Source: a virus
Direction: 5' to 3' (one strand)
Length of the DNA: 22,556 nucleotides
IMG/VR virus record: IMGVR_UViG_3300028844_006851
Coordinates: 1 to 22,556 of that record
Under the pieces are notes generated by a model. That model did not search any database. It was not told the origin of the DNA and saw nothing but the letters and a program-made list of their open reading frames with translations. This document shows, in pieces, positions 8,479 to 19,955 of the stretch; within the stretch, counting starts at the first letter, position 1; each line of letters begins with the position of its first letter. The position numbers were made by a program, and so were the translations under genes.

Positions 8479-8480
8479 CA

Positions 8481-9283: not shown

Positions 9284-9289
9284 AATATA

Positions 9290-9318: not shown

Positions 9319-9355
9319 GGAAAAAGTGAAGTTTTTTTAATCTTTTTTTTTGTTG

Positions 9356-9422: not shown

Positions 9423-9442
9423 AAAAAAAGTGAAACTTTTTC

Positions 9443-9471: not shown

Positions 9472-9476
9472 AAGGT

Positions 9477-9736: not shown

Positions 9737-9766
9737 CGAAAAGATAAAAAAAAGTGAAACTTTTTC

Positions 9767-9795
9767 TTGACTTTTGCCCAGGATAGGGCTATATT
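9767..9795 (+). promoter_or_regulatory. Leaderless-type promoter for 9801
   Basis: -35 TTGACT, 17-base spacer, -10 TATATT (9790-9795), AGGGT, ATG 9801; nearly the same sequence as the 9477 and 11799 promoters. Confidence 0.8.
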
Positions 9796-9800
9796 AGGGT

Positions 9801-9944
9801 ATGAATAAAAATAATACATCTCGCAAAAATACTAACGCTGACAAAAAAGTCAACATCTGCCCTGCGCTAAATCAAATTTTCTCAGTACACGGAAAATCTC
9901 TAAACCAGCAGTTGGTCGCAATAACTGCGATTAAGAAAAGTTAA
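9801..9944 (+). CDS. 47-residue hypothetical protein
   Basis: A short frame, MNKNNTSRKNTNADKKVNIC, then ALNQIFSVHGKSLNQQLVAI and AIKKS. The basic, Asn/Lys-rich N-terminus is probably disordered; the C-terminal part could form one amphipathic helix. The case for it being real rests on its ATG standing five bases after a strong promoter and on occupying the full cassette between R6 and R7. Function unknown. Confidence 0.6.
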   Translation: MNKNNTSRKNTNADKKVNICPALNQIFSVHGKSLNQQLVAITAIKKS

Positions 9945-9956
9945 CCTTAAATGTCG

Positions 9957-10023
9957 TAACTTGTTGGTTGTCAGCGAGTTACGGCGGCCCGCGCGCCCTA
10001 AGTCGTTGGTAGTCAACAACTTA
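9957..10023 (+). repeat. Double-palindrome element R7
   Basis: First arms TAACTTGTTGG / TCAGCGAGTTA, spacer CGGCGGCCCGCGCGCCC identical to R6, second arms TAAGTCGTTGG / TCAACAACTTA. Between convergent genes. Confidence 0.9.
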
Positions 10024-10030
10024 GGTAAAA

Positions 10031-10073
10031 AGCGCAGCGCAGCGCAGCGGCGTCAAGCCTTTTATTTGGCAAT
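10031..10073. other. GCGCA micro-repeat and possible weak terminator
   Basis: About four tandem copies of a GCGCA-like unit are followed by GGC-GTCAA-GCC and TTTTATTT. A closely similar CCTTTTATTTGGC ending follows R3 (8162-8178). This could be a weak plus-strand terminator after R7 and R3; the stem is short. Confidence 0.35.
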
Positions 10074-10080
10074 ACCCTAT

Positions 10081-10275
10081 TTAGTCCCTCATGAGGTACA
10101 ACCTGCCTTCTGCATTCCACCCTTCATTTGATACATCACGGAATAATCCACTCTCAAGATTCACTTTCAGGCAATCTTCGCTCACATACCTTTCCCCTCT
10201 CTTGGCATCTGCTTCTGAGCTAGTTTCTATGATCGCGACTTTACCTTGATCTATTGTTGTAATTATAAGTTTCAT
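10081..10275 (-). CDS. Small hypothetical protein, 64 residues
   Basis: ATG 10275 (MKLIITTIDQGKVAII) is chosen because a perfect TATAAT lies six bases upstream; the longer reading starts with TTG. A compact alpha/beta-like protein: strand, strand, EADAKRGERYVSEDCLKV helix, then GWNAEGRLYLMRD. Last of three consecutive minus-strand genes that each appear to have their own promoter. Function unknown. Confidence 0.7.
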   Translation of the reverse strand: MKLIITTIDQGKVAIIETSSEADAKRGERYVSEDCLKVNLESGLFRDVSNEGWNAEGRLYLMRD

Positions 10276-10281
10276 TGTGAG

Positions 10282-10310
10282 ATTATATCTTGCCACATAA
10301 TGTAAAAGAC
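10282..10310 (-). promoter_or_regulatory. Probable leaderless-type promoter for 10275
   Basis: Perfect -10 TATAAT (10282-10287) six bases before the ATG; the -35 position (GTCTTT) is poor, making this the weakest of the set. Confidence 0.5.
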
Positions 10311-10345
10311 TGCCAACCAAGGTAGGAATAAAAGTATGTCCCAAC

Positions 10346-10609
10346 TCATGAATAAACTCCTTTCATTTCATCGGACAAACCGATCTCTTGATCTTCTTCG
10401 TCAATATCTTCGGCTGAGTCTGAGTGAAGGAATTGAGATTCGTCCTCAAGATCTTCTTTCTGAGCATCAAGCAATCCATGCTCTGTGACTACATCCTCTG
10501 TTTTTATCTCTGCGATAAATTCCTCAACTGATTGAGTCGGCATGATTGTTTCTGAGTTTTCGACTGCTTTAGCGATAACTGCGATTCTTTGTTCTAGTGT
10601 TAGTTCCAT
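10346..10609 (-). CDS. Small acidic hypothetical protein
   Basis: An 87-residue, strongly acidic protein: MELTLEQRIAVIAKAVENSET, helix SVEEFIAEIKTED, and an Asp/Glu-rich C-terminal half (DLEDESQFLHSDSAEDIDEEDQ). The N-terminal helix pair may be an interaction module. Acidic tails are common among early phage proteins that block host nucleic-acid-binding enzymes, but that function is not demonstrated. Its -35 overlaps the end of the 10638 gene. Confidence 0.78.
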   Translation of the reverse strand: MELTLEQRIAVIAKAVENSETIMPTQSVEEFIAEIKTEDVVTEHGLLDAQKEDLEDESQFLHSDSAEDIDEEDQEIGLSDEMKGVYS

Positions 10610-10616
10610 AATATAT

Positions 10617-10645
10617 AATATAGTTTAGTTGTTTTAATTAGTCAA
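10617..10645 (-). promoter_or_regulatory. Leaderless-type promoter for 10609
   Basis: -35 TTGACT (10640-10645), overlapping the stop codon of the upstream gene; 17-base spacer; -10 TATATT (10617-10622); seven bases to ATG. Confidence 0.75.
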
Positions 10646-10991
10646 GCCCTAATTCTTTGTCGTTATCTGCTTTTATCTTTCTTAATAAGTCAACCCATAC
10701 AAATCCATTAAGTTGAGCATCTCTCATGTGTTTACTGATTTGAGCAGGAGATTGACTTGTAAGAACATCGCCACATACTGCGAGAGGAATTGTTGCATCT
10801 TTAAAAGTCATTAAAACTTCGTATTCATTGTCGTCAACATGACCATAAAGACCACGACCATCTTCAGTGTTGGCAACGACAGAAACCATGAAGTCGCCAA
10901 ACTTTAGTTGAGCCATCACTGCCTTTGGGCAAGTAGGATGAGTATGAAAAGCGAGATTGTCGAAGTCGAGTAGTTGTTGTTTTGTTGTCAT
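10638..10991 (-). CDS. Hypothetical protein, 117 residues
   Basis: Begins MTTKQQLLDFDNLAFHTHPT, and contains a beta-rich middle (LKFGDFMVSVVANTEDG, YGHVDDNEYEVLMTFKD) and a C-terminal helix (PAQISKHMRDAQLNGFVWVDLLRKI). A compact globular protein is likely. Phages often carry one-off proteins of this size in their early regions. No motif identifies a function. Its leaderless promoter has a perfect TTGACA -35. Confidence 0.8.
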   Translation of the reverse strand: MTTKQQLLDFDNLAFHTHPTCPKAVMAQLKFGDFMVSVVANTEDGRGLYGHVDDNEYEVLMTFKDATIPLAVCGDVLTSQSPAQISKHMRDAQLNGFVWVDLLRKIKADNDKELGLD

Positions 10992-10997
10992 ATATAT

Positions 10998-11026
10998 AAA
11001 CTAAGCTATAACACGCCTCGTGTCAA
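10998..11026 (-). promoter_or_regulatory. Leaderless-type promoter for 10991
   Basis: -35 TTGACA (11021-11026), 17-base spacer, -10 TAGTTT (10998-11003), ATATAT, ATG. Confidence 0.8.
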
Positions 11027-11066
11027 ATAAAAAGAAAAAAAAGATGAATTAATTTTAATATTGTTG

Positions 11067-11132
11067 TAAGTCGTTGAATATCAAGGGTTTGCGCGGGCCA
11101 GGCGCCGTAAGTCGTTGACTTACAGTGACTTA
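11067..11132 (+). repeat. Double-palindrome element R8
   Basis: First arms TAAGTCGTTGA / TCAAGGGTTTG, spacer CGCGGGCCAGGCGCCG, second arms TAAGTCGTTGA / ACAGTGACTTA. Between two minus-strand genes. Confidence 0.9.
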
Positions 11133-11143
11133 GGGGATTAACC

Positions 11144-11335
11144 TTACGCTTCTATCAGTTGTTTAAATTCATCGTAAACCTTTTGCTTGCTACCTTTTAG
11201 ATTAAACTCTTGCTTGATGATGGAGTAGCAACTTCTGCCCCTTGACATCTTCAAGCCATTAAGCTCAAGCCTTAGCCCCCGAAGTAATGTTTTAAATCTG
11301 AATGCTTCAATTTGTGTTGGTGTGTATAATGTCAT
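11144..11335 (-). CDS. Small conserved phage/plasmid-type protein
   Basis: A 63-residue protein, MTLYTPTQIEAFRFKTLLRG, then LRLELNGLKMSRGRSCYSII and KQEFNLKGSKQKVYDEF. The TPxQIxAFRxxTLxxxLxLExxGxKxSRGRSxYxIIK pattern is one I recognise from short, widely distributed phage and plasmid proteins of unknown function. Basic, all-helical; probably nucleic-acid-associated by charge. It sits 11 bases from R8 and is transcribed from its own promoter, which overlaps the end of 11367-11612. Confidence 0.8.
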   Translation of the reverse strand: MTLYTPTQIEAFRFKTLLRGLRLELNGLKMSRGRSCYSIIKQEFNLKGSKQKVYDEFKQLIEA

Positions 11336-11341
11336 AATAAT

Positions 11342-11370
11342 AATATAGTTTAGTTGTTGTTGTATGTCAA
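11342..11370 (-). promoter_or_regulatory. Leaderless-type promoter for 11335
   Basis: -35 TTGACA (11365-11370) overlapping the stop codon of the upstream gene, 17-base spacer, -10 TATATT (11342-11347), six bases, ATG. Confidence 0.8.
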
Positions 11371-11612
11371 ACGATTTCTTTAACCATTTTCATTAATTGC
11401 TTTACTTCGTCTAGGTTTTGTTGAAGCAAGTTGAGTTGTGCAAGTATGCCTTTATAGCCAACATACCCTCCGTTCATGTGACCCTGCCAAGTGTTGCCCA
11501 CTTTCTTGAATGAAACATCCCAACCACAATGATGATCATATGCTTTTAGGATGCCGTTTGGCAAGCGCTCGAATGTCAGTTCTTTTCCGTTTGTTATGTC
11601 TTTTAATGTCAT
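11367..11612 (-). CDS. Hypothetical protein, 81 residues
   Basis: ATG 11612 (MTLKDITNGKELTFERL) follows a leaderless-type promoter; a longer reading would translate the -10/-35 region. The N-terminal half is a small beta-sheet (ILKAYDHHCGWDVSFKKVG, TWQGHMNGGYVGYKG), the C-terminal third a helix (LNLLQQNLDEVKQLMKMV). Unknown function. Shares with 11144 a single minus-strand run starting beside R9. Confidence 0.75.
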   Translation of the reverse strand: MTLKDITNGKELTFERLPNGILKAYDHHCGWDVSFKKVGNTWQGHMNGGYVGYKGILAQLNLLQQNLDEVKQLMKMVKEIV

Positions 11613-11618
11613 ATATAC

Positions 11619-11647
11619 AATGTAAGGCATAAACCTAATTATAGCAA
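11619..11647 (-). promoter_or_regulatory. Leaderless-type promoter for 11612
   Basis: -35 TTGCTA (11642-11647), 17-base spacer, -10 TACATT (11619-11624), GTATAT, ATG. Confidence 0.8.
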
Positions 11648-11677
11648 GAAAAAAGATCAACTAAATGCATTTTGTTG

Positions 11678-11744
11678 TAAGTCGTTGAGTACCAAGTACT
11701 TGCGGCGGCCCGCGTGCCCTAAGTCGTTGAATATCAAGTACTTA
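11678..11744 (+). repeat. Double-palindrome element R9
   Basis: First arms TAAGTCGTTGA / CCAAGTACTTG, spacer CGGCGGCCCGCGTGCCC, second arms TAAGTCGTTGA / TCAAGTACTTA. Between divergent promoters. Confidence 0.9.
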
Positions 11745-11764
11745 AAGAAAGATAAAACTTTTTC

Positions 11765-11793
11765 TTGACTTTCGCTCGGTACAGGGGTATATT
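11765..11793 (+). promoter_or_regulatory. Leaderless-type promoter for 11799
   Basis: -35 TTGACT, 17-base spacer, -10 TATATT (11788-11793), AAAGT, ATG 11799. Confidence 0.8.
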
Positions 11794-11798
11794 AAAGT

Positions 11799-12128
11799 AT
11801 GAAATTAATAATAAACGACATCGACCCTAGCGAACATACATTCTTCGCATCAATCTCAAACGACGACTGCCAAGAAATGATCCTGAGATGCTCATTTTAC
11901 ACAGACGAGCAAGAAGAATTGTATGGAGATCAAGTTTCAGCGATTCATGTGGTCGGCTACTTCAATTCAGTCGAGGAGATTGTAGCTTATGGAGATAATG
12001 GATTTCCGATGACCCCACCTGCTGAGCTAGTAAAATCAGCTATGGATCAACTCAAGGATGTTGAGCTAGAAATTGAGTCTCGAGAATGTGAAGTCGATTA
12101 CTCACCTCAATACTACGATCTAATTTAA
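11799..12128 (+). CDS. Acidic hypothetical protein, 109 residues
   Basis: Begins MKLIINDIDPSEHTFFASIS; strands (EMILRCSFYTDE, VSAIHVVGYFNSVEEIVAY) are followed by a helix (PPAELVKSAMDQLKDVELEI) and an acidic, tyrosine-rich end (EVDYSPQYYDLI). Likely an alpha/beta fold of about 100 residues, overall strongly acidic. No family is recognised. A single-gene leaderless cassette between R9 and R10, with its stop six bases before R10. Confidence 0.8.
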   Translation: MKLIINDIDPSEHTFFASISNDDCQEMILRCSFYTDEQEELYGDQVSAIHVVGYFNSVEEIVAYGDNGFPMTPPAELVKSAMDQLKDVELEIESRECEVDYSPQYYDLI

Positions 12129-12133
12129 ACCCT

Positions 12134-12199
12134 TAAGTCGTTGACAACCAAGGGGTTGCGGCGCGGGGGCGCCGTAAGTCGTTGACTATCAATCACTTA
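12134..12199 (+). repeat. Double-palindrome element R10
   Basis: First arms TAAGTCGTTGA / CCAAGGGGTTG, spacer CGGCGCGGGGGCGCCG, second arms TAAGTCGTTGA / TCAATCACTTA. The minus-strand gene 12189-12317 ends inside its right arm. Confidence 0.9.
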
Positions 12200-12317
12200 G
12201 GAGAACTTCTTTTAACTCTGTAACTGCCCACCCCGAAAGCTGAGAAAGCTCTCGGAGTGTCATTGATATATTTGAGTCAAATGTATTTGTTACTTTTTCT
12301 TTTGTCCATTTATTCAT
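12189..12317 (-). CDS. 42-residue protein coupled to the GP88-like gene
   Basis: The frame starts MNKWTKEKVTNTFDSNISMT and continues LRELSQLSGWAVTELKEVLL, which looks like a short helix-turn-helix (LRELSQLSG as first helix, AVTELKEVL as second). The ATG overlaps the stop of the GP88-like gene (ATGA, 4 bases), showing translational coupling. The last codons (LSD and TGA) lie inside the right arm of R10, so the repeat has become part of the coding sequence. A small DNA-binding or adaptor protein is possible. Confidence 0.65.
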   Translation of the reverse strand: MNKWTKEKVTNTFDSNISMTLRELSQLSGWAVTELKEVLLSD

Positions 12318-13051
12318 GAGTCAACCCCTTCTACTACAAATCCCGTTTCATCCTTCTTTGCCAAACCTTTTTCGATAAGACCAACAACAACACCTTTCTT
12401 GTCAAGAAAACGCAAGTCAGTTTCATCACCATTGACGACCTCAAAACCTTTCCATGTTTTGGGTAATTGATTGCGAAATACAACGGCAACATTGCCACCC
12501 ATTAAAAGAACCATCTCGCACTTTTTGTCGTTATTCTCTGAGCGAGAAAAAGTTAAATGATAATTAGAGGGAAATTTTGCCTCGCCCTTAACAAAAGGCT
12601 TGCCAAGAAAAGAACACATTCTTTTGAATGACTTAGTATAATCATAAAATTGAGTGGATGAATGTTTTTCTAGAATGGTCACACCATCCTCATTGATCTC
12701 ATTTTCCCACATAATATCACTTGTGAGATTAGGGCGAAATACAGCTTGCATACTTTTCTTTTGTGCTGACTTAATTGAAGAAGTAATTTCTTTGGATAGT
12801 TTTTCAAAAAACTCGATTTTCTTCTCGAAGAACAATTTTGTTTTGTTAATGCGTGAATCTTGAACAGATCCCATTTGACCACGACCTGCCGTATTCAAAC
12901 AAGACATTGTGCAACCTTTAGAACGCCATTGGCAAGTTTCGTAGCCTGAAAGATTTGCTGGGGCAAGGTGAATGCCTTTTGTGATGTAGCCTAATTTCTC
13001 GCCTTTGAGAATCTTTTGGTTACCTGATGTTAGAAGTGTTGTTTTAATCAT
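12314..13051 (-). CDS. GP88-family phage protein
   Basis: A 245-residue protein. Residues 30-60 carry the family's recognisable segment: APANLSGYETCQWRSKGCTM then SCLNTAGRG, with cysteines at 40, 47 and 51 (C-x6-C-x3-C), probably binding metal or an iron-sulphur cluster. Downstream are the VFRPNLTSDIMWE region (expected RxN-x-SDI) and a long alpha/beta domain with FYDYTKSFKRM and NYHLTFSRSEN. I recognise this as the mycobacteriophage gene product 88 family, found in many phages and plasmids; its biochemical role is unknown. It is leaderless and heads a bicistronic unit with 12189-12317. Confidence 0.72.
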   Translation of the reverse strand: MIKTTLLTSGNQKILKGEKLGYITKGIHLAPANLSGYETCQWRSKGCTMSCLNTAGRGQMGSVQDSRINKTKLFFEKKIEFFEKLSKEITSSIKSAQKKSMQAVFRPNLTSDIMWENEINEDGVTILEKHSSTQFYDYTKSFKRMCSFLGKPFVKGEAKFPSNYHLTFSRSENNDKKCEMVLLMGGNVAVVFRNQLPKTWKGFEVVNGDETDLRFLDKKGVVVGLIEKGLAKKDETGFVVEGVDS

Positions 13052-13057
13052 AACTAC

Positions 13058-13086
13058 ATACTAAGGCACTTTTTTAAATATAGCAA
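13058..13086 (-). promoter_or_regulatory. Leaderless-type promoter for 13051
   Basis: -35 TTGCTA (13081-13086), 17-base spacer, -10 TAGTAT (13058-13063), GTAGTT, ATG. Confidence 0.8.
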
Positions 13087-13116
13087 GAAAAAAGATCAAC
13101 TAAATGAAAATAGTTG

Positions 13117-13182
13117 TAAGTCGTTGGATATCAAGGAGTTACGTGGGCCAGGCGCCGTAAGTCGTTGAACATCAACGGTTTA
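13117..13182 (+). repeat. Double-palindrome element R11
   Basis: First arms TAAGTCGTTGG / TCAAGGAGTTA, spacer CGTGGGCCAGGCGCCG, second arms TAAGTCGTTGA / TCAACGGTTTA. Lies between a minus-strand terminator and the next minus-strand promoter. Confidence 0.9.
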
Positions 13183-13199
13183 CGGAAAAAATACACTAC

Positions 13200-13232
13200 A
13201 AAAAGGCCCCGCCCGTCCGAAGGGCGAGGTCT
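13200..13232 (-). terminator. Rho-independent terminator after 13258
   Basis: Minus strand GACCTCGCCC / GGGCGGGGCC around a TTCGGAC-type loop, followed by a T-run; located 26 bases after the stop codon. Confidence 0.85.
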
Positions 13233-13257
13233 TATTTACGTTAAACCTATTTAGGGC

Positions 13258-13587
13258 TCAAATGACTTGGTGCGCATTCTCGTAAAATTCTTTATCATGC
13301 TCGCCTGTCTTTTTCACCTTGCGAAGCTCTTCGCACTCAGAAGGGTAAGCATGGCAGGGTTCGTCTTTTCCGTTCTGCTTGATATACCAAGCAGGTGGGT
13401 CAAGAGGTTGAACAAGCAAACCGATAAACCCATACTCCACAAAGTACTTGAGTATTGTTGATCTACCAATCCCATTGATGCAAACATTTACTTCAGTACC
13501 TACGGCAGGTATTGGCTTTTCGCAAACCCATTGGAGTTTCTCGAACTCGGTATAAGATGATACGGGTTGTTCTACTTTTTCGTGCAT
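13258..13587 (-). CDS. Conserved phage protein of unknown function
   Basis: A 109-residue protein: MHEKVEQPVSSYTEFEKLQW, then the characteristic PIPAVGTEVNVCINGIGRST and VEYGFIGLLVQPLDPPAWYI. The IPAxGxxVxVxINGIGxxT...YFxExGFxGxxV...PPAWYxKQN pattern recurs in small phage proteins and forms a probable SH3-like beta barrel; no activity is known. ATG 13587 overlaps the previous gene by 16 bases and has the strong ribosome site AAGGAAGAAG, so here translation is Shine-Dalgarno-driven and coupled, unlike promoter-proximal genes. Confidence 0.85.
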   Translation of the reverse strand: MHEKVEQPVSSYTEFEKLQWVCEKPIPAVGTEVNVCINGIGRSTILKYFVEYGFIGLLVQPLDPPAWYIKQNGKDEPCHAYPSECEELRKVKKTGEHDKEFYENAHQVI

Positions 13588-13757
13588 TTTTCTTCTTCCT
13601 TCTTTACTTTGTTTAATTGATCGATACTCTTAGCCAGAAAGATGATATCTTCTCTTGCTATCTGTTTTCCCTCGGCTGAGGCGTTATCATTTTCGAGAAC
13701 CTGCAAGTAAACTCTTACTGCTGACTCCCAACTAGGTGCTATATCTATTGTTTCCAT
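13572..13757 (-). CDS. Small hypothetical helical protein
   Basis: A 61-residue protein: METIDIAPSWESAVRVYLQV, then LENDNASAEGKQIAREDIIF and a basic/acidic helical end (DQLNKVKKEEEKCTKK). Mostly helix. It is the leaderless first gene of a two-gene unit with 13258-13587, whose ribosome site lies within its last codons. The promoter overlaps the end of the 13771-13944 gene. Function unknown. Confidence 0.75.
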   Translation of the reverse strand: METIDIAPSWESAVRVYLQVLENDNASAEGKQIAREDIIFLAKSIDQLNKVKKEEEKCTKK

Positions 13758-13764
13758 ACTTAGT

Positions 13765-13794
13765 ATTCTATTATTTTCTGTTGACGATTGTCAA
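13765..13794 (-). promoter_or_regulatory. Leaderless-type promoter for 13757
   Basis: -35 TTGACA (13789-13794), 18-base spacer, -10 TAGAAT (13765-13770), seven bases, ATG; lies within the end of the upstream gene. Confidence 0.7.
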
Positions 13795-13944
13795 CCTTTC
13801 TCCTGTTTTTATCTTGTGGTCGATGTAGAGTTTGTTTGCTAAGTGGTTCGCTCTAGCTCTTGATTTTACATTATCAACTAGCTTGCCGAATACACGAATA
13901 TTGAGCCACTCTTTGAAGTTTGGGTTTGTACTAATCGTTATCAT
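13771..13944 (-). CDS. 57-residue protein, paralogue of 9110-9283
   Basis: A short gene, MITISTNPNFKEWLNIRVFG, continuing KLVDNVKSRARANHLANKLY and ending GERLTIVNRK. It aligns without gaps to the 9110-9283 product at MITI, NPNF, FG, V-x-x-V, the basic RxKA/RARA stretch and HK, and both have 57 residues. ATG 13944 sits six bases after a -10. The helix KSRARANHLANKL is basic, compatible with nucleic-acid contact. Function unknown. Confidence 0.72.
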   Translation of the reverse strand: MITISTNPNFKEWLNIRVFGKLVDNVKSRARANHLANKLYIDHKIKTGERLTIVNRK

Positions 13945-13950
13945 ATATAC

Positions 13951-13979
13951 ATACTAGAGCCATTCGTGCTAAACTGCAA
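13951..13979 (-). promoter_or_regulatory. Leaderless-type promoter for 13944
   Basis: -35 TTGCAG (13974-13979), 17-base spacer, -10 TAGTAT (13951-13956), GTATAT, ATG. Confidence 0.8.
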
Positions 13980-14010
13980 GAAAAAAATGATGTTTAAATG
14001 CATTTTGTCG

Positions 14011-14076
14011 TAACCTCTTGGTTATCAAGTAGTTACAGCGCCCCCGCGCCGTAAGTCGTTGATAGTCAACAACTTA
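14011..14076 (+). repeat. Double-palindrome element R12
   Basis: First arms TAACCTCTTGG / TCAAGTAGTTA, spacer CAGCGCCCCCGCGCCG, second arms TAAGTCGTTGA / TCAACAACTTA. Between a minus-strand terminator and the next minus-strand promoter. Confidence 0.9.
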
Positions 14077-14092
14077 GGTAATTGTCAAGCAC

Positions 14093-14126
14093 AAAAAAAA
14101 CCCCCTCCCGCTACGCAGGAAGGGGT
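14093..14126 (-). terminator. Rho-independent terminator after 14142
   Basis: Minus strand ACCCCTTCCTGC / GCGGGAGGGGG stem with a short loop, followed by eight T; 16 bases beyond the stop codon. Confidence 0.88.
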
Positions 14127-14141
14127 AAGTAACAACGACGT

Positions 14142-15005
14142 TTACACTTCGACTAATTCGTCTTCGATGACCTCCATGTCAAGAACATTCTCGACGTGAT
14201 CGTCCATCTCAAAACTGACCTCGCCATCAAGAACTGAATGCAAAGCATCAGAGCGATTTGGCAAGGCAACTAAATTCCCCTTGTAGACCTCAGTGAAGGC
14301 ATTGTAAAGAGAATTTACATTGCGATCCCAAAATTGAGGATGATCGGAGGATTCCCATTGGTCAACCACGTCGATGATCTTGGACTTAGGTAAAGCACCT
14401 GCCTTGCAAGCACGAATGACAATGTCATTGACTTGGGCATTGGTAAGCTCCACATTCTTGTAGGCATTGATGCGCTGATCTTGACCATGCCAAAATCCGA
14501 ACAATTTACCTAGCGCACGATTGATCGTGAAGTCCAAGTCCTGCAATATGTTGCGAGTATGACGACGAGCCAACTTAATGGTATTAGTAAAAATAAGGTT
14601 GTCGCAAACAAATGGAGCATCACCTGCGCACAATCCCGCAGGAAAAGTCTTGTCGTGAGAATTGCGCAAACCGATTACACAACCACGATCCGACTCGGCA
14701 CGATTGGCATGATCCACGGCAAACAAACCAAAATAATGATTGTTGTTCCTAGCAAGAGAATGAACCTCGTCTTGAATGGTGAACCCTTGATCGCCTAAGA
14801 AACCTCTAGCACGAGTTACTAAATCGTGGTGAGCGATAGGTTGGTAAGAGATTGCCCTCTCGCCATTGGCATTTTCTTTTTTGCGAAACTCGACAGGTGG
14901 AGTAGGAACTCCTACGACTTGATCGTAGTCTACGAGAGTGCGATTGCCTCCACAAATGCTAAGGTTAATTTTGCGAGGAGCGATGTTGTTTTCTTGATTT
15001 TCCAT
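14142..15005 (-). CDS. DUF932-like phage protein
   Basis: A 287-residue protein. The N-terminus has SYQPIAHHDLVTRARGFLGD; the centre has the recognisable CVIGLRNSHDKTFPAGLCAG and PFVCDNLIFTN, then RRHTRNILQDL. I associate the xGLRNSHDKS...FVCDNLxF...RHT pattern with DUF932 proteins of phages and plasmids, whose role is unknown (an anti-restriction-like function is sometimes suggested). The C-terminus is acidic (EMDDHVENVLDMEVIEDELV). GC content is higher than the neighbours. It is a leaderless single-gene unit with a strong terminator. Confidence 0.72.
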   Translation of the reverse strand: MENQENNIAPRKINLSICGGNRTLVDYDQVVGVPTPPVEFRKKENANGERAISYQPIAHHDLVTRARGFLGDQGFTIQDEVHSLARNNNHYFGLFAVDHANRAESDRGCVIGLRNSHDKTFPAGLCAGDAPFVCDNLIFTNTIKLARRHTRNILQDLDFTINRALGKLFGFWHGQDQRINAYKNVELTNAQVNDIVIRACKAGALPKSKIIDVVDQWESSDHPQFWDRNVNSLYNAFTEVYKGNLVALPNRSDALHSVLDGEVSFEMDDHVENVLDMEVIEDELVEV

Positions 15006-15013
15006 AATATATA

Positions 15014-15042
15014 ATAATAGTTGAGTTTTAGTGTTTAGTCAA
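15014..15042 (-). promoter_or_regulatory. Leaderless-type promoter for 15005
   Basis: -35 TTGACT (15037-15042), 17-base spacer, -10 TATTAT (15014-15019), eight bases, ATG. Spacing is slightly longer than in sister promoters. Confidence 0.65.
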
Positions 15043-15045
15043 GGA

Positions 15046-15279
15046 TTAATTTCTTGAAAATTGTTCTGAGTTATTCTGCATTTGATCGTAAGCATCTGCG
15101 CGACGAGCAATCTCTTTAAGAGTGACCCCCATGACTGCAAGTAGCATGGTTTCGTCTTCGTCGATTTCGCCTTGCTTAGGCTCAATGAAAGTTTCGAACA
15201 ACCACCCCATAGTATGCTCCATAGCATCAATGGCAGTTTCAAATGAGTCGTCCGATGAGTAGTCTTTTTTAATATTCAT
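15046..15279 (-). CDS. Small acidic hypothetical protein
   Basis: A 77-residue protein: MNIKKDYSSDDSFETAIDAM, then EHTMGWLFETFIEPKQGEID and MLLAVMGVTLKEIARRADAYD. Helical and acidic. Its ATG lies inside the end of 15269-15394 (overlap 11 bases), so it is translationally coupled to that leaderless gene, with only a weak AAGAAA ribosome site. Function unknown. Confidence 0.75.
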   Translation of the reverse strand: MNIKKDYSSDDSFETAIDAMEHTMGWLFETFIEPKQGEIDEDETMLLAVMGVTLKEIARRADAYDQMQNNSEQFSRN

Positions 15280-15394
15280 AGTTTCTTTTATGCTTAGGTT
15301 TCCTGTTGTACTTAGAGTTATTCTTGTGAGGACGTGCCTTGGTGAAGAGGACTTGAAGTCTGATCTTCGGGGTCTTTGTCTTTCTCACTTTCAT
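15269..15394 (-). CDS. 41-residue highly basic peptide
   Basis: ATG 15394 (MKVRKTKTPKIRLQVLF) is chosen because it stands six bases from a -10; the longer reading translates the promoter. The whole peptide is Lys/Arg-rich (TKARPHKNNSKYNRKPKHKR), so it may bind nucleic acid, or may serve mainly as the translated lead-in to the coupled 15046-15279 gene. Function unknown. Confidence 0.6.
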   Translation of the reverse strand: MKVRKTKTPKIRLQVLFTKARPHKNNSKYNRKPKHKRNYEY

Positions 15395-15400
15395 ATATAC

Positions 15401-15429
15401 ATAGTAACACCTAGAGGTTAAAAGCGCAA
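15401..15429 (-). promoter_or_regulatory. Leaderless-type promoter for 15394
   Basis: -35 TTGCGC (15424-15429), 17-base spacer, -10 TACTAT (15401-15406), GTATAT, ATG. Confidence 0.75.
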
Positions 15430-15460
15430 GAAAAAAATGATGTTTAAATGCATTTTGTTG

Positions 15461-15526
15461 TAAGTCGTTGAATATCAAGGACTTGCGCGGGCCAGGCGCC
15501 GTAAGTCGTTGAGCACCAAAGGTTTA
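15461..15526 (+). repeat. Double-palindrome element R13
   Basis: First arms TAAGTCGTTGA / TCAAGGACTTG, spacer CGCGGGCCAGGCGCCG identical to R8, second arms TAAGTCGTTGA / CCAAAGGTTTA. Between divergent promoters. Confidence 0.9.
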
Positions 15527-15552
15527 TGGCATAAAAAAAATAAACTAAATTC

Positions 15553-15581
15553 TTGACTCTCGGTCATTTATGCCCTAGTAT
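15553..15581 (+). promoter_or_regulatory. Promoter for 15618 with a true leader
   Basis: -35 TTGACT, 17-base spacer, -10 TAGTAT; start expected near 15588, leaving about 30 bases that contain AAAGGA seven bases before ATG 15618. It contrasts with the leaderless sites. Confidence 0.75.
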
Positions 15582-15617
15582 ATATACATAACATTAATCA
15601 TTAACCAAAGGAAAAAT

Positions 15618-15926
15618 ATGACCCACACAATAAATAGCGAAACTCTAGAAACTGCAGTTCAGATGAAACAAGGAATCGTGGTACACGATTTGGAAACCCT
15701 CAATCAATTAGTCGGTGATGCAATTCTTCAGCTTGCCTCTCAGGACACACTTGGATCACTGAATGCTAAGTCTGCGGTAGAGAAAGTTGCTAAAGATCAA
15801 TTTGAAAAAGATTACGGAAGTCGCCAGATCTCATGGGTAGATTATGCTACCAAATTCTCCAAGAATCTTGACGGCAACCCTTTTCTTCTTGACGAGATAC
15901 TCGCTGATAGATTAGAGAGGTCTTAA
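15618..15926 (+). CDS. Hypothetical protein, 102 residues
   Basis: Begins MTHTINSETLETAVQMKQGI; helical throughout (HDLETLNQLVGDAILQLAS, KSAVEKVAKDQFEKDYG), with RQISWVDYATKFSKNL and an acidic end (LDEILADRLERS). Has a conventional leader and Shine-Dalgarno site (AAAGGA), which may mean a higher or differently timed expression than the leaderless genes. It forms the cassette between R13 and R14. Function unknown. Confidence 0.82.
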   Translation: MTHTINSETLETAVQMKQGIVVHDLETLNQLVGDAILQLASQDTLGSLNAKSAVEKVAKDQFEKDYGSRQISWVDYATKFSKNLDGNPFLLDEILADRLERS

Positions 15927-15941
15927 TCTCTCAAAAGCCCA

Positions 15942-16007
15942 TAAGTCCTTGGCAGTCAAGGGCTTAGGGCGCGGGGGCGCCGTAAGTCGTTGATATTCAA
16001 CAACTTA
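15942..16007 (+). repeat. Double-palindrome element R14
   Basis: First arms TAAGTCCTTGG / TCAAGGGCTTA, spacer GGGCGCGGGGGCGCCG, second arms TAAGTCGTTGA / TCAACAACTTA. Between convergent genes, next to the terminator of the minus-strand operon. Confidence 0.9.
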
Positions 16008-16023
16008 GGGAAAATAACCTCAC

Positions 16024-16056
16024 AAAAAAAACCCCACCTTTCCGAAGGGTGGGGTT
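16024..16056 (-). terminator. Terminator of the 17776-16076 operon
   Basis: Minus strand AACCCCACCCT / AGGTGGGGT stem with TCGGAA-type loop, then eight T. It lies about 20 bases after the last stop codon of the operon. Confidence 0.9.
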
Positions 16057-16075
16057 ATATTTGGTCACTTCCTAT

Positions 16076-16228
16076 TTAGGAGTGACATTTTTGTAATCGA
16101 TATAATTTTTGAAGCAAGTAATTATGCTCTCTTTTAAGTTTGTAGTAAGACGGGGTGTTCTCACCGTAGATTTCCCTACAGGCCAATTGGTACCCAAGGA
16201 ATCTGACTCTTTCTCTTAATGTATCCAT
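16076..16228 (-). CDS. 50-residue basic hypothetical protein
   Basis: A short frame, MDTLRERVRFLGYQLACREI, then YGENTPSYYKLKREHNYLLQ and KLYRLQKCHS. Basic, helical, tyrosine-rich; composition and codon use are protein-like. It starts three bases after the stop of 16232-16471 and ends just before a strong terminator, so it is the last gene of the seven-gene operon starting at 17776. Function unknown. Confidence 0.65.
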   Translation of the reverse strand: MDTLRERVRFLGYQLACREIYGENTPSYYKLKREHNYLLQKLYRLQKCHS

Positions 16229-16231
16229 AAT

Positions 16232-16471
16232 CTAGACCTTGTTGAGGCTAACAATTCTGTCGTAGCGAAAAGAGCGAACTTCGCCACGATTAAAACAGTG
16301 TGCCCTGAAACCCGCAACACTCAAGCCTTGCTTTATGTTTCCGAACTCATTCCTGTGTTTGGGTTGTGATATGGTGTACATTGCGGTGTTGCCACCCTTG
16401 GTTTTATATACCAAGCTGTACATGGGGTTGAATAATCTAGCAATTTTAACTAGTAACTTTTTCATCTTCAT
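16232..16471 (-). CDS. Small protein with WYL-like C-terminal motif
   Basis: A 79-residue protein with an N-terminal basic amphipathic helix (MKMKKLLVKIARLFNP) and a C-terminal half containing AGFRAHCFNRGEVRSFRYDRIVSL. The FRAxC...xGxxRxFRYDRI pattern resembles the core of WYL ligand-binding domains, here in a minimal form, so a sensory or regulatory role is possible; this is a tentative reading. The strong ribosome site GAGGAG lies five bases before ATG 16471, and the gene overlaps the preceding one by 26 bases. Confidence 0.72.
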   Translation of the reverse strand: MKMKKLLVKIARLFNPMYSLVYKTKGGNTAMYTISQPKHRNEFGNIKQGLSVAGFRAHCFNRGEVRSFRYDRIVSLNKV

Positions 16472-16685
16472 TTATCTCCTCTATTGGGTTTTTGTTGTAG
16501 TGGTTGTAGAGTTCGCACGCCTCATCGGCAGTCTCACAGGTGTAAGAAATAATATCTCTTCCGAAGTAGGGGTGGTAATTGTCTCGATTTTCTTCGAAAT
16601 AAACCTCCCATTGTTCAGTGCTTTCGTTGTAGCTAGGTAAGTCCATTGGTTTACCTACGCAGAGTGCTTCTATGTAATTGTTCAT
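16446..16685 (-). CDS. Acidic hypothetical protein, 79 residues
   Basis: Begins MNNYIEALCVGKPMDLPSYN; central EQWEVYFEENRDNYHPYFGR, then TCETADEACELYNHYNKN and an acidic end. The DEACELYNHYNK helix after a small beta-like part resembles DUF-type sensor-like phage proteins but no family is certain. It starts one base after the previous stop and overlaps the next gene; its ribosome site is poor, so coupling is likely. Confidence 0.75.
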   Translation of the reverse strand: MNNYIEALCVGKPMDLPSYNESTEQWEVYFEENRDNYHPYFGRDIISYTCETADEACELYNHYNKNPIEEINEDEKVTS

Positions 16686-16686
16686 T

Positions 16687-16902
16687 TTAATAATTGTTTA
16701 CTCCTTCTAATTCTGATTCTAACCATAGCATGGCTTTTTGTCTGATGTCACAGTGTGAGACTTCAGTAAATACATCGTCATTGACTCGAAGATAAAGATC
16801 ATTCCCGTGCTTGTTCTCAGTCTCTAAGTCGTTTGCTGAATACCATGCTTGAGCATAGTGTATTGCTCTTTTCTCTATCTGTTTTGATTCTTCTAATTTC
16901 AT
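16687..16902 (-). CDS. Hypothetical protein, 71 residues
   Basis: ATG 16902 (MKLEESKQIEKRAIHYAQ) is two bases after the preceding stop. A TTG at 16938, inside the preceding gene, is an alternative start with a GGAG site at good spacing and would add 12 residues. The protein is acidic and helical (AWYSANDLETENKHGND, HCDIRQKAMLWLESELEG). Unknown function; middle gene of the 17776-16076 operon. Confidence 0.7.
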   Translation of the reverse strand: MKLEESKQIEKRAIHYAQAWYSANDLETENKHGNDLYLRVNDDVFTEVSHCDIRQKAMLWLESELEGVNNY

Positions 16903-16903
16903 C

Positions 16904-17125
16904 TTAGCAAGGGATTGGTGAGTCTTCGTCTGTTTCAATGGTTACTCCGAAATGAGATGCTAGCTCTGAAATCATTGTATCCTTATTGAAATAATTATAT
17001 GCATGGGTTAAAAGTTGCTCTTGCTCTTCTCCTGTATGCCCGTCTCTGAGTTCATCATATATCTCAAAGATATTCATATTCCAGTTCCATCCTTCTACTC
17101 GTGATTCTATTTGTGATTTTGTCAT
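16904..17125 (-). CDS. Acidic hypothetical protein, 73 residues
   Basis: Begins MTKSQIESRVEGWNWNMNIF; helical with EIYDELRDGHTGEEQEQLL, and a C-terminal HFGVTIETDEDSPIP. Starts 13 bases after the previous stop with a weak AAGAAA site. Nothing identifies a function; position and spacing mark it as an operon gene. Confidence 0.75.
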   Translation of the reverse strand: MTKSQIESRVEGWNWNMNIFEIYDELRDGHTGEEQEQLLTHAYNYFNKDTMISELASHFGVTIETDEDSPIPC

Positions 17126-17138
17126 ATTTCTTGTTTGT

Positions 17139-17372
17139 TTATAGTTGTGCTGATTGAAAAGATGATTCTATTCTAAGCTCATTTTGTAATGATGTCAAAC
17201 TTAAAATGATATCTTCTAGGGTTTCTTCGGCAGACATCATGGTTGCGCCAAGTGGAAACTTTTCAGGGTGTTGTTCGTGTCGATCCAAACATACTTTGGA
17301 CATCGGATCGGCATATGCCATTTCTCCTCTGACTATGTCTAGGATGGTTTCTCTTATCTTTGCTTGTGTCAT
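17139..17372 (-). CDS. Acidic hypothetical protein, 77 residues
   Basis: Begins MTQAKIRETILDIVRGEMAY, with YADPMSKVCLDRHEQHPEKF in the middle and a helical C-terminus (SAEETLEDIILSLTSLQNEL). Its ATG lies two bases after the previous stop, with AGG as a weak ribosome site, so it depends on the 17776 promoter. Function unknown. Confidence 0.75.
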   Translation of the reverse strand: MTQAKIRETILDIVRGEMAYADPMSKVCLDRHEQHPEKFPLGATMMSAEETLEDIILSLTSLQNELRIESSFQSAQL

Positions 17373-17374
17373 AA

Positions 17375-17776
17375 TTACCTATTGTATGCGGTTACTTGGT
17401 TGTGTTGTAATAAAACTTGATCTGCATAGTATACAAAACTTTCGTCCTTCTTGTCAACAAAAGTCTCATACTTATATGGATTATATGTTACCTCTGTCGC
17501 GGGGAGATCGGTGTCTACATTCTCTGCATCTTGAAGATAACCCTTGACAAACGCATGAACATTCTTACGCTTCTCACGAAGAACCTTTTCCCTACCCTTA
17601 ACATCAACATGAAAATAGCAATCCCATAAACCAATGGAATGATTCTTTGGAATGTGAGCCTTAACTAATCCGTGTTGCTTGACTGACCAGCAGTCCTTGT
17701 GAAGATTCTTGTATACATAAACAGGTCGGTTTGACTTGATTATATATCGTGGGTCTTGTTGGTTTCTCTTTATCAT
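17375..17776 (-). CDS. Hypothetical protein, 133 residues, first gene of operon
   Basis: ATG 17776 (MIKRNQQDPRYIIKSNRPVY) is selected from the promoter position; a longer reading would translate the promoter. Basic and beta-rich: VYVYKNLHKDCWSVKQHG, GLWDCYFHVDVKGREK, a basic helix VLREKRKNVHAFVKGYLQD, then acidic LPATEVTYNPYKYETFVDKK. It heads seven tightly spaced minus-strand genes ending at a terminator at 16024. Unknown function. Confidence 0.8.
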   Translation of the reverse strand: MIKRNQQDPRYIIKSNRPVYVYKNLHKDCWSVKQHGLVKAHIPKNHSIGLWDCYFHVDVKGREKVLREKRKNVHAFVKGYLQDAENVDTDLPATEVTYNPYKYETFVDKKDESFVYYADQVLLQHNQVTAYNR

Positions 17777-17782
17777 ATATAC

Positions 17783-17811
17783 ATAGTAAGGCACTTTTAT
17801 GATTAAGGCAA
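17783..17811 (-). promoter_or_regulatory. Leaderless-type promoter for 17776 operon
   Basis: -35 TTGCCT (17806-17811), 17-base spacer, -10 TACTAT (17783-17788), GTATAT, ATG. Confidence 0.8.
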
Positions 17812-17842
17812 GAAAAAAGATCAATTAAAATGAATTTTGTCG

Positions 17843-17908
17843 TAAGTCTATGGTAATCAAGGGTTTACGGCACGGGGGCGCCGTAAGTCGTTGATAGTCA
17901 AGGACTTA
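17843..17908 (+). repeat. Double-palindrome element R15
   Basis: First arms TAAGTCTATGG / TCAAGGGTTTA, spacer CGGCACGGGGGCGCCG, second arms TAAGTCGTTGA / TCAAGGACTTA. Rightmost copy; between a minus-strand terminator and the next minus-strand promoter. Confidence 0.9.
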
Positions 17909-17924
17909 TGAAAGTGTCAAGCCC

Positions 17925-17963
17925 AAAAAAAAGCGACCCCCCCTAACCACAAGAGGAGTCGCT
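17925..17963 (-). terminator. Rho-independent terminator upstream of R15
   Basis: Minus strand AGCGACTCCTC / GGGGGGTCGCT stem with a nine-base loop followed by eight T. Ends the transcript of the 18147-18401 gene. Confidence 0.88.
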
Positions 17964-18054
17964 CGATTATTTGACAATTCTGTATTTAGAATCGTCTCTA
18001 ACCATTAACCATAATAACTATAACCAAAAATTTTATCAATAATTATTGTAATCT

Positions 18055-18129
18055 CTATGTCCCACAAATATAATCGTCACTATAATAAACATTGTAAACA
18101 TCCCAACTAATTCCATATTTTAATTTCAT
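18055..18129 (-). CDS. Possible 24-residue micro-protein
   Basis: ATG 18129 opens a short frame, MKLKYGISWDVYNVYYSDDY and four more residues, ending at TAG 18055. Aromatic and acidic composition looks protein-like, and it lies 17 bases after the stop of 18147-18401 on the same transcript, before the terminator. No ribosome site is evident, so it remains a guess. Confidence 0.25.
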   Translation of the reverse strand: MKLKYGISWDVYNVYYSDDYICGT

Positions 18130-18146
18130 ATTATTTTTTGTATAAT

Positions 18147-18401
18147 TTAGTCTGCAATAGCAAACACTTCTTTTAACTTCTTAGATTGATCTGCCGTAAT
18201 AAACACGGATCTGCAGTAATCAATATCATTATCCTCTACATACTTTATCCTCTTGGCTACTTCTGAGACCATTACCTGCTCCCGAGGAAGCCCGCCCCAC
18301 TGAATGATGACCTTCATACATGGAAAGTGCTCGCTTAAGACCTCAGCTTGAGGCGACGTGATATAACCGAATTGACTTAGTATTGTTTTTAATGTTTCCA
18401 T
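18147..18401 (-). CDS. Hypothetical protein, 84 residues
   Basis: Begins METLKTILSQFGYITSPQAE; continues VLSEHFPCMKVIIQWGGLPR, EVAKRIKYVEDNDIDYC and a helical end DQSKKLKEVFAI. Likely a small alpha/beta protein. Its leaderless promoter begins immediately after the ncRNA terminator T-tract (the T-run runs into the -35), so the two units are packed end to end. Function unknown. Confidence 0.8.
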   Translation of the reverse strand: METLKTILSQFGYITSPQAEVLSEHFPCMKVIIQWGGLPREQVMVSEVAKRIKYVEDNDIDYCRSVFITADQSKKLKEVFAIAD

Positions 18402-18407
18402 GATAGT

Positions 18408-18436
18408 ATACTAGCGCACCGATTCCGTGGAGTCAA
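18408..18436 (-). promoter_or_regulatory. Leaderless-type promoter for 18401
   Basis: -35 TTGACT (18431-18436), 17-base spacer, -10 TAGTAT (18408-18413), six bases, ATG. Abuts the terminator ending at 18439. Confidence 0.8.
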
Positions 18437-18438
18437 AT

Positions 18439-18491
18439 AAAAAACCCCCACCGAAGGAAATTAATCTTTCGATGAGGGCTGTGCGGGTGGG
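18439..18491 (-). terminator. Terminator-like 3' end of the ncRNA
   Basis: Minus strand: outer stem CCCACC / GGTGGG with an inner imperfect CGAAAG / CCTTCG stem, then GGTTTTTT. The long irregular loop makes it less certain than the others. Confidence 0.65.
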
Positions 18492-18796
18492 AGAAACTCG
18501 CTTAAACAAAAATGTGTGGGGGAGGACTACTGTATACCTCCAACTTTTCGGCGTGAACATCAGTTCAGGATTACCTACTTCGAACTACAAACTAGACATG
18601 GTATTTATCATCGGCTCATCCGATTGGACTCTACCGCCCCACCACAGGGAGCTTGCATACCTTAGCCCGCTCACGACAGGCTTAGTTCGGGTCACCCACA
18701 GGGAGGGTTATAAGACCTCCCAAAGTGATAAAAATATTAAAGAACAAAAATTTGGATTATTTGATTTACTTGAGCTTATCCTTCTCAACCTTAACT
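18439..18796 (-). ncRNA. Candidate structured non-coding RNA, about 360 nt
   Basis: The minus strand has a near-consensus promoter at 18803-18831, then about 360 bases with no usable minus-strand reading frame, then a terminator. The segment is much more GC-rich than its surroundings and contains several local hairpins: TTGAG/CTCAA near the 5' end, GGGAGG/CCTCCC at about 18700-18720, ATCGG/CCGAT at about 18611-18625, and GGAGG/CCTCC at about 18521-18543. It matches no tRNA, tmRNA, RNase P or 6S pattern that I can see. An antisense frame is open on the plus strand (GTG 18427 or ATG 18472 to 18798) but lacks a ribosome site and its product is not protein-like. Role unknown; a regulatory or decoy RNA expressed early is plausible. 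Confidence 0.6.
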
Positions 18797-18802
18797 AGAT
18801 AT

Positions 18803-18831
18803 ATATTACTACTTTATTTGTTATTTGTCAA
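18803..18831 (-). promoter_or_regulatory. Strong promoter for the ncRNA
   Basis: -35 TTGACA (18826-18831), exactly 17 bases, -10 TAATAT (18803-18808). No ATG follows nearby in a long frame; start predicted near 18796. Confidence 0.75.
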
Positions 18832-18858
18832 GTTATAATTTATTTTTTATTAAAAAAG

Positions 18859-19098
18859 TTATTCACAATTTAGCTTATTTAACTCAACTAAAATTTCTGT
18901 TATGCTATTGTACTTACTAGATGCAACCATACTTAACTCTCCGTTAGTCTTCTCTGTGAGATGTAGTAAATCTTTAATATACTCATCTAGTTTAGCCAAT
19001 TTAATTGTAGTTATTTCTCTGTTAGTTAATTTGTCATATAAATCATCATTAGATGCAAACATACTAACTCTTTTATTAAGTGGTTTTATTAAGTCCAT
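18859..19098 (-). CDS. Hypothetical protein, 79 residues
   Basis: Begins MDLIKPLNKRVSMFASNDDL; helical (YDKLTNREITTIKLAKLDEY, TEILVELNKLNCE). Probably a helical bundle or coiled coil. ATG 19098 is one base after the previous stop, with GGGGG-type purines upstream as ribosome site, so it is cotranscribed with 19100-19300. Function unknown. Confidence 0.75.
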   Translation of the reverse strand: MDLIKPLNKRVSMFASNDDLYDKLTNREITTIKLAKLDEYIKDLLHLTEKTNGELSMVASSKYNSITEILVELNKLNCE

Positions 19099-19099
19099 A

Positions 19100-19300
19100 T
19101 TATACTACCCCCTTTTTTAATCTTAATGCTCTCTCTGCTTGGATTTGTTTCAACCTGCGATCTGCCTCTCGTTGTTGAGCCATGATACCTTCGGTTGCTT
19201 CGTTGTAACCTGCGAACCTCATGCTGAAGGCGTGAGGGTTCTTGCCGTTTACTTTACTTAATACTTCTGATGCTCTTGCGCATTTTGCTATGTTTGCCAT
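19100..19300 (-). CDS. Small basic hypothetical protein, 66 residues
   Basis: Begins MANIAKCARASEVLSKVNGK, with PHAFSMRFAGYNEATEG and then a long arginine-rich helix (AQQREADRRLKQIQAERALR). Has the conventional ribosome site AAAGGA, seven bases before the ATG. The charged helix suggests coiled-coil or RNA/DNA binding. Followed at once by 18859-19098. Function unknown. Confidence 0.75.
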   Translation of the reverse strand: MANIAKCARASEVLSKVNGKNPHAFSMRFAGYNEATEGIMAQQREADRRLKQIQAERALRLKKGVV

Positions 19301-19321
19301 AATTTTTCCTTTTGTTGGTGA

Positions 19322-19519
19322 TTAATATGTACTAACAATAGCATCGGAATGATCCTCTGTCAACACTTTTCTGTCCCAAGTTAAGCAAGTATTGCAAAAA
19401 TCTTTTCTCCATGCAGGGTTGTCAGCAAAACAATTGGGACAAATTTTTCCATCAAGTATTTGGCTCTTAGGTGAGCAACCAAGTATGAATATAATAGGAA
19501 TTATTAAGAAAAATTTCAT
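19322..19519 (-). CDS. Small lipoprotein with two Cys pairs
   Basis: ATG 19519 (MKFFLIIPIIFILGCSPKS) begins a signal peptide with the lipobox LGC, so the mature protein would be lipid-anchored at Cys15. The exported part contains CPNC and CNTC separated by 12 residues, a zinc-ribbon-like or disulphide pair arrangement. Phage lipoproteins of this size often act at the cell surface, for example in superinfection exclusion; that role is inference. An in-frame TTG at 19525 is less likely as the start. Confidence 0.72.
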   Translation of the reverse strand: MKFFLIIPIIFILGCSPKSQILDGKICPNCFADNPAWRKDFCNTCLTWDRKVLTEDHSDAIVSTY

Positions 19520-19658
19520 TTGCAATTAAAAAGATTTGGGGTGTTCAATGAAGGAGGAAACAAACCCATGACACTCAATTTAAAAGAGAGTGGTGGGAAA
19601 AACTCCTTGTCCTAACACATCGTTAGACTCTATGCCCCCAAAATTATTATTAAAAATT
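19520..19658. other. Short intergenic region with hairpin
   Basis: Contains a CTAAC/GTTAG hairpin (19613-19627). On the plus strand there is a consensus-like AAGGAGG ten bases before an ATG with only a 15-codon frame (MTLNLKESGGKNSLS). Nothing here is convincing as a gene. Confidence 0.3.
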
Positions 19659-19955
19659 TTATTTATTATTATTTCGGACTATTCTTTTATCTTCCATATT
19701 ATCATTTACATAGAAGTTATTTGTAAAAACATCTTTCACGTTTTGTCCATTATTTGTAAGTTTATTAATATCACTTTTAAGTTGAGTAATAATCTTCTCA
19801 ACTAAATTTAAAGCATCTTCTTGTGTGGCTTTCTTGCCTGTCTCTAGATTGACCAAAGGTTCATTATTATTTAAATCTTTTTTCATTCTATTTATTTCGG
19901 CGCGAAGTTTTAAAATTTCGTCCAATTTATCATTAATGTTATTTGCTAAAGTCAT
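19659..19955 (-). CDS. Coiled-coil hypothetical protein, 98 residues
   Basis: Begins MTLANNINDKLDEILKLRAE; heptad-like hydrophobic spacing continues through EINRMKKDLNNNEPL and NLVEKIITQLKSDINKLTN, with an Asn-rich basic end. Probably forms a coiled-coil oligomer. It is preceded by a good promoter with a short A-rich leader and no ribosome site. Function unknown. Confidence 0.75.
   Translation of the reverse strand: MTLANNINDKLDEILKLRAEINRMKKDLNNNEPLVNLETGKKATQEDALNLVEKIITQLKSDINKLTNNGQNVKDVFTNNFYVNDNMEDKRIVRNNNK

Follow-up and report, generated by a model that had tools for sequence, protein, structure and literature searches.

A manA-family RNA in viral DNA that is probably a stand-alone transcript with an rRNA-operon-like leader

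Introduction

The manA RNA was described in 2010 from marine metagenomes, T4-like cyanophages and two gamma-proteobacteria and was proposed as a probable cis-regulator, with a pseudoknot drawn with a question mark (Weinberg et al. 2010, PMC2864571). A corrected structure came with Rfam 14 (PMC7779021), and Rfam assigns the family (RF01745) the type "Cis-reg". A second system for comparison is the rRNA operon. In this system the Nus/SuhB complex protects the untranslated RNA from Rho, tethers its 5' end to the polymerase and helps long-range folding (PMC4807359, PMC10250234). The boxA consensus GYTCTTTAANA is gamma-proteobacterial, and non-coding RNAs were outside the consideration of the genome-wide boxA survey (PMC5725501). 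CRISPR arrays can also have boxA leaders, so that boxA stands before a long untranslated RNA outside rRNA, at least in the passage of PMC7862264 that cites Stringer 2020.

We analyzed a 22,556-nt stretch of viral DNA (IMG/VR record IMGVR_UViG_3300028844_006851; hereafter the window), in which an earlier note, made from the sequence alone, had proposed a new structured non-coding RNA with its own promoter and terminator. The unit has the same order of elements as E. coli rrnB P2-boxB-boxA, namely a promoter, a boxB hairpin, boxA and a long closed-ended untranslated RNA. It differs from an rRNA operon in that the RNA is manA and not 16S, is short, has its own terminator and lies in a phage, and from the CRISPR arrays in that it is a compact folded phage RNA with no repeats or spacers. 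The lambda nut sites likewise combine boxA and boxB in a phage, but in the order boxA-boxB, which is the reverse of that in the window, where a terminator and then a fresh promoter-like sequence come after the manA domain.

Results

The RNA is a distant member of the manA family. The single match in the window at or above the Rfam gathering score was RF01745, which covered model positions 1-192 of 192 and exceeded the cut-off of 55.2 bits. The earlier note had proposed the RNA as a new one that fitted no phage RNA recognised by its author; the second claim is wrong because a full-length RF01745 match lies above the gathering score, and the first is not supported since the family was described in 2010 (PMC2864571). 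A permissive Rfam search of the region (E<=1) returned nothing besides manA, and known phage RNAs other than manA were ruled out by the lack of an Rfam match. No tRNA or tmRNA was found in the window by ARAGORN or Rfam. 6S, tmRNA and the other phage or bacterial non-coding RNAs in Rfam are likewise stand-alone structured RNAs, and the window matched none of them but manA. The consensus fold of manA is present in the window, with the 5' hairpin (P1), the closing helix and the internal multi-branched domain, as are the GUGAC, UAAGGU, GUGGUG and GGUAUACAGUA..CC motifs of canonical manA. Several helices of the window depart from the canonical model, which is no surprise in a distant branch, and the score is 70 bits as against 158-181 bits for canonical phage manA. 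The elements of the unit and of its downstream side are:

18803..18831, minus strand: promoter TTGACA-17-TAATAT of the RNA unit, 10/12 match, predicted start ~18796
18770..18788, minus strand: boxB-like hairpin TTGAG-AAGGATAAG-CTCAA, common to 28 of 33 scored loci
18731..18746, minus strand: boxA TGTTCTTTAATATTTT, with the core GTTCTTTAATA at 18735-18745, an exact GYTCTTTAANA
18511..18721, minus strand: manA RNA domain (RF01745), 70 bits, full model length
18439..18480, minus strand: intrinsic terminator, 13-bp stem and T6
18408..18436, minus strand: promoter-like TTGACT-17-TAGTAT of the next gene, 9/12 match, its -10 and the ATG just 6 nt apart
18147..18401, minus strand: downstream gene of 84 aa, conserved in many of these phages and outside the RNA unit

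The layout described in the earlier note was otherwise confirmed. A minus-strand unit with its own promoter and terminator is present in the sequence (18439-18831), and 35 related loci are laid out alike. The claimed promoter was found at 18831-18803, and the GC-rich island has a GC content of 0.57 at 18600-18699 as compared to 0.16-0.33 on the distal side. The stem and T-run at the minus-strand 3' end make up an intrinsic terminator that is strong, and a promoter-like sequence for the next gene begins 3 nt past the T-run. A usable minus-strand reading frame had been said to be lacking, and indeed none was open across the core in any of the 35 relatives. The predicted transcript, from ~18796 to the terminator at 18439, would be about 355 nt long. 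Promoter-like sites are frequent in this DNA (17 observed vs 9.6 expected at 17400-19900), and strict TTGACA sites numbered 13 in the whole window vs 1.6 expected.

Two kinds of repeated sequence were also noted in the window. Promoter-like blocks of the form CTTTTTCTTGAC..TATATTA.GGTATGAA stand immediately before short ORFs with a -10-like element a few bases from the ATG (9421-9485, 9745-9809, 11743-11807 and 6945-7009; also at 11600, 13039 and 17764). In addition, a dispersed element of ~73-84 nt is present in about 15 copies at 6865-17917 (e.g. 8052-8135, 11058-11141 and 17834-17917), in which TAAGTCGTTGATAGTCAACRACTTA flanks a GC-rich GGCGCCCCCGCGCC core on both sides and the halves look palindromic. 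A related set was seen at 9356, 9670, 9957 and 11678.

Relatives were collected by pattern scans of viral contigs and fell into two kinds, type A (canonical) and type B (the kind of the window). RF01745 matched 45 of the 46 related records at 64-181 bits, the remaining one being an edge contig; type A scored 158-181 bits and type B 64-93 bits. Removal of identical and near-identical loci left 35 distinct type B sequences including the window, and all but one of these came from uncultured viral contigs. Type A was carried by cyanophage isolates such as P-SSM2, P-SSM4, P-HM1, P-HM2 and S-SSM5, while no isolate with type B was found in the phage collection searched. Isolate matches of the window proteins, of the terminase of a related contig and of RIIB were distant and mixed only. 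Type B carriers appear to be large marine phages in which no T4-type capsid gene was detected (28 contigs), a search whose own controls also gave no match.

When type B was compared with 15 canonical manA loci, the boxB-boxA leader, the separate terminator and the optional inserted hairpins were confined to type B. Among the 15 type A loci, boxA was found in none and a T-run followed the closing strand in all, and where the type A promoter was scored its -10 ended ~6 nt before P1. The type A sites in the genome are varied (after pstS, regA, gp23 or ferredoxin, or before gp32 or talC), and canonical members do precede genes such as gp32, purL and talC. For the type A locus of the cyanophage P-TIM68, the next annotated gene lies on the opposite strand. 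Several "hypothetical proteins" are annotated inside manA, namely PSSM4_169.1 in P-SSM4 (L150, 1567-1740), SSSM5_127 in S-SSM5 (L154, 1548-1754) and PHM2_011/012 in P-HM2 (L152, 1556-1660 and 1632-1730); these may be annotation errors.

Since the folding energy of the whole unit was unremarkable (z -1.8; 6 of 100 shuffles as good), the case for structure must rest on comparison: thermodynamic stability is insufficient as proof of structure, which covariation supplies. The covariation analysis called for in the earlier note strongly supported the fold across the 35 type B sequences, and with the Rfam match it bears out a structured RNA on the minus strand. RNAalifold gave 49 nested pairs, 20 of them with compensatory changes. 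With the pseudoknot included, 98.4% of cells were paired and 22 pairs had changed on both sides; the covariation score was 0.344 as against 0.170 for shuffled alignments, and none of 500 shuffles reached 0.344. When the partners were shifted along by one to three columns, pairing fell to <50%. The main helices are:

18701..18721, minus strand: P1, the 5' hairpin of the manA domain, 5 of 6 pairs changed on both sides
18695..18700, minus strand: closing helix, 5' strand UGUGGG (alignment A1 columns 27-32)
18515..18520, minus strand: closing helix, 3' strand CCCACA (alignment A1 columns 213-218)
18673..18675, minus strand: pseudoknot, hairpin-loop side (CGU), compensatory changes
18552..18554, minus strand: pseudoknot, partner side (ACG), compensatory changes

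The closing helix of 6 bp bridges manA ends ~180 nt apart and is nearly invariant within type B; in the window, the closing strand could also pair differently (CUGUGGGUG with CACCCGCACAG). The 3-bp pseudoknot was found by a column-pair scan, and was chosen and counted on the same alignment. Its pairs are CGU/ACG in most sequences and GAU/AUC in nine, with compensatory changes at two of the three pairs (10 and 9 sequences) and none broken. Two lone column pairs of alignment A1 also covary, 41-191 (A-T/G-C in 34 of 35) and 149-189 (C-G/G-C/T-A/T-G in 35 of 35), which suggests tertiary contacts in manA.

The compensatory changes also bear on whether the plus strand encodes a protein instead (18427-18798, 123 aa), a reading that we consider hardly credible. 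The frame is open from a GTG, but antisense frames were open in only 12 of the 35 relatives, the core lengths were spread evenly modulo 3, and the substitutions tracked the RNA helices. The ORFs had no PHROG match above chance, so the protein homologues of the antisense plus-strand frame that would have spoken against an RNA were not found there. We therefore rejected a protein-coding origin.

The leader between the promoter and the RNA, the most informative part of the unit, had gone unnoticed in the earlier note. In the window, boxA lies between the promoter and the long untranslated RNA with boxB upstream, as in an rrn-type leader. The window holds a single exact GYTCTTTAANA, GTTCTTTAATA, and its consensus is that of gamma-proteobacteria. 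An exact match arises by chance in about one quarter of shuffles; the weight of boxA lies in its conservation in place. Upstream DNA was available at 35 loci (L094 had none and was excluded), and 34 of these loci carried a boxA-like motif, against a background of 0.022 per 320 nt; the sole locus without it (L056) has TGTTCTTTATAGT at the same place. Many relatives carry GATCTTTAACA, one base off the gamma-proteobacterial consensus. A TTGAC[AT]-16/17 promoter preceded boxA in 33 of 34 loci, and the exception (L091) lies near a contig end. The boxB-like hairpin is weak in the window alone (z -1.5); it was detected in 28 of the 33 loci whose promoter was scored, and L023 (TTAAG/CTTAA) and L081 (TCGAG/CTCGA) have compensatory variants of it. 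The distance from boxA to P1 was either 24-27 nt or 76-231 nt. About 15 relatives keep boxA although a hairpin domain that is self-contained and mostly of unrelated sequence is inserted between it and P1.

The terminator of the window had a folding energy of -21.1 kcal/mol (z -5.6), and none of 200 shuffles was as good. Terminators of <= -16 kcal/mol within 200 nt were found in 28 of 37 type B units, among which some pairs, L087/L089 for example, are closely related, vs 2 of 182 control stretches of the same DNA; at a threshold of -10 the counts were 31 and 7. The terminators of L061 and L090 lie just past the 200-nt limit, and L006 and L035 had no clear terminator. The hairpins are largely unrelated in sequence from locus to locus, and a new TTGAC[AT] promoter follows in ~26 loci. 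The gene behind manA varies as well, the 84-aa gene being the commonest, with a gp82-like gene and others elsewhere. The 84-aa family had no Pfam or PHROG match and has invariant residues W35, G36, R40, D61 and R64. An extra conserved-looking domain between manA and the terminator was seen in L022, L084 and L125 (GCAAATATGCGGAGGT..TGTGTTGCCTCTAGT..) and another in L061/L090; neither had an Rfam match.

Judged by sequence, manA in the window is not in the 5' UTR of a controlled gene on one transcript, unlike Rfam's cis-regulatory class. An expression platform sharing an aptamer strand was not found in the window either, where the terminator lies 31 nt past the manA domain and has neither overlap nor a common strand with 18511-18721. 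The "Cis-reg" label thus appears not to fit the type B branch, because a terminator and a fresh promoter follow the RNA and the downstream genes differ; type A deserves a test. Such varied placement together with terminators is the apparent pattern of a stand-alone gene and is awkward for the leader of one gene.

When 85,000 bacterial genomes were scanned for the exact 19-mer boxA, most matches were due to chance or lay in coding sequence, and one complete unit (L125) was found on a contig assigned to the bin "Rickettsiales bacterium MED606", a bacterial MAG. This contig either points to the host or is phage DNA binned in error. The RNA model matched only the MED606 bin among 28 genomes of its order, and the rRNA leaders of SAR11 and related alphaproteobacteria that were examined, including relatives of the MED606 bin, were without this boxA. 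In one type B contig ARAGORN predicted a tmRNA whose tag peptide is unusually long (L035, 10941-11374, minus strand); this prediction may be spurious.

Discussion

Homology to manA, the fold, the promoter, the conserved boxA and boxB and the terminator are established at the sequence level. We consider it probable, at roughly two chances in three, that the RNA is a stand-alone phage non-coding RNA of the manA family with an rrn-like leader, whose transcription and folding are aided by Nus factors and which acts in trans. That it is an RF01745 homologue and that it is a separate, terminated transcript would each rate higher than this combined reading. Host RNA polymerase would start at TTGACA-17-TAATAT, transcribe the boxB-like hairpin and boxA, arranged like the leader of an rRNA operon, and then the ~210-nt manA domain, and stop at the terminator to yield an RNA of ~355 nt. 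By analogy with rRNA, we infer that boxA recruits host NusB-S10 and the Nus/SuhB complex, which would shield the untranslated RNA from Rho. By tethering the 5' end until the 3' end has been transcribed, this complex would also let the pseudoknot and the long-range closing helix form. Such help with folding is plausible for manA because a 6-bp helix has to close across ~180 nt and a pseudoknot has to form. The folded RNA, presumably abundant, would then act in trans. The core task of manA should not depend on Nus factors, because canonical manA shares the fold without boxA.

Three other readings have to be weighed against this one. That manA serves the 84-aa gene as a cis-regulatory leader or riboswitch, its fold controlling read-through of the terminator, is unlikely. 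The classification of the family as cis-regulatory by Rfam and Weinberg 2010 counts against a stand-alone RNA, as do the canonical members in front of genes, and the 84-aa gene is the usual type B neighbour, which leaves some probability to a cis link. Control of that gene by the fold is nevertheless hard to reconcile with a terminator that shares no strand with the domain, with the next gene's own promoter-like sequence behind it, with downstream genes that change and terminators unrelated in sequence, and with the opposite strand of the next annotated gene in P-TIM68. Use of boxA and boxB by phages is a textbook case, and the conserved promoter, boxB and boxA could instead be a nut- or put-like site that, perhaps with the manA fold, modifies polymerase in cis for read-through into phage genes. 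This is improbable: the boxB-boxA order is that of rrn and not of lambda nut, a strong terminator and a fresh promoter stand right behind, and boxA is absent from canonical manA.

When NutL RNA is expressed at a high level, it titrates Nus factors and rRNA expression falls (PMC4807359), and with its strong promoter and terminator the unit might serve as an abundant boxA decoy that titrates NusB-S10 and lowers host rRNA synthesis. A decoy requires no conserved 210-nt fold with a pseudoknot, and canonical manA keeps that fold without boxA; we regard this reading as quite improbable, slightly more so than a nut-like site. As for Nus protection in the stand-alone reading, a structured RNA of ~355 nt may need no protection from Rho.

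What appears to be new is that manA in this branch would be a self-contained gene read from an rRNA-operon-like leader. No paper linking manA to boxA was found in the literature searched, which does not in itself show that none exists. Still more tentatively, and with the odds somewhat against it, the manA class as a whole could be phage-borne, trans-acting structured RNAs and not riboswitches, with type B expressed from a mini rRNA-operon-like unit that captures Nus/SuhB for transcription and folding. The family is an orphan that has been classed since 2010 as a probable cis-regulator. If manA is a stand-alone gene in type B, the search for its function shifts from riboswitch ligands to trans targets, and, if the reading is true, a phage structured RNA joins the few users of boxA outside rRNA.
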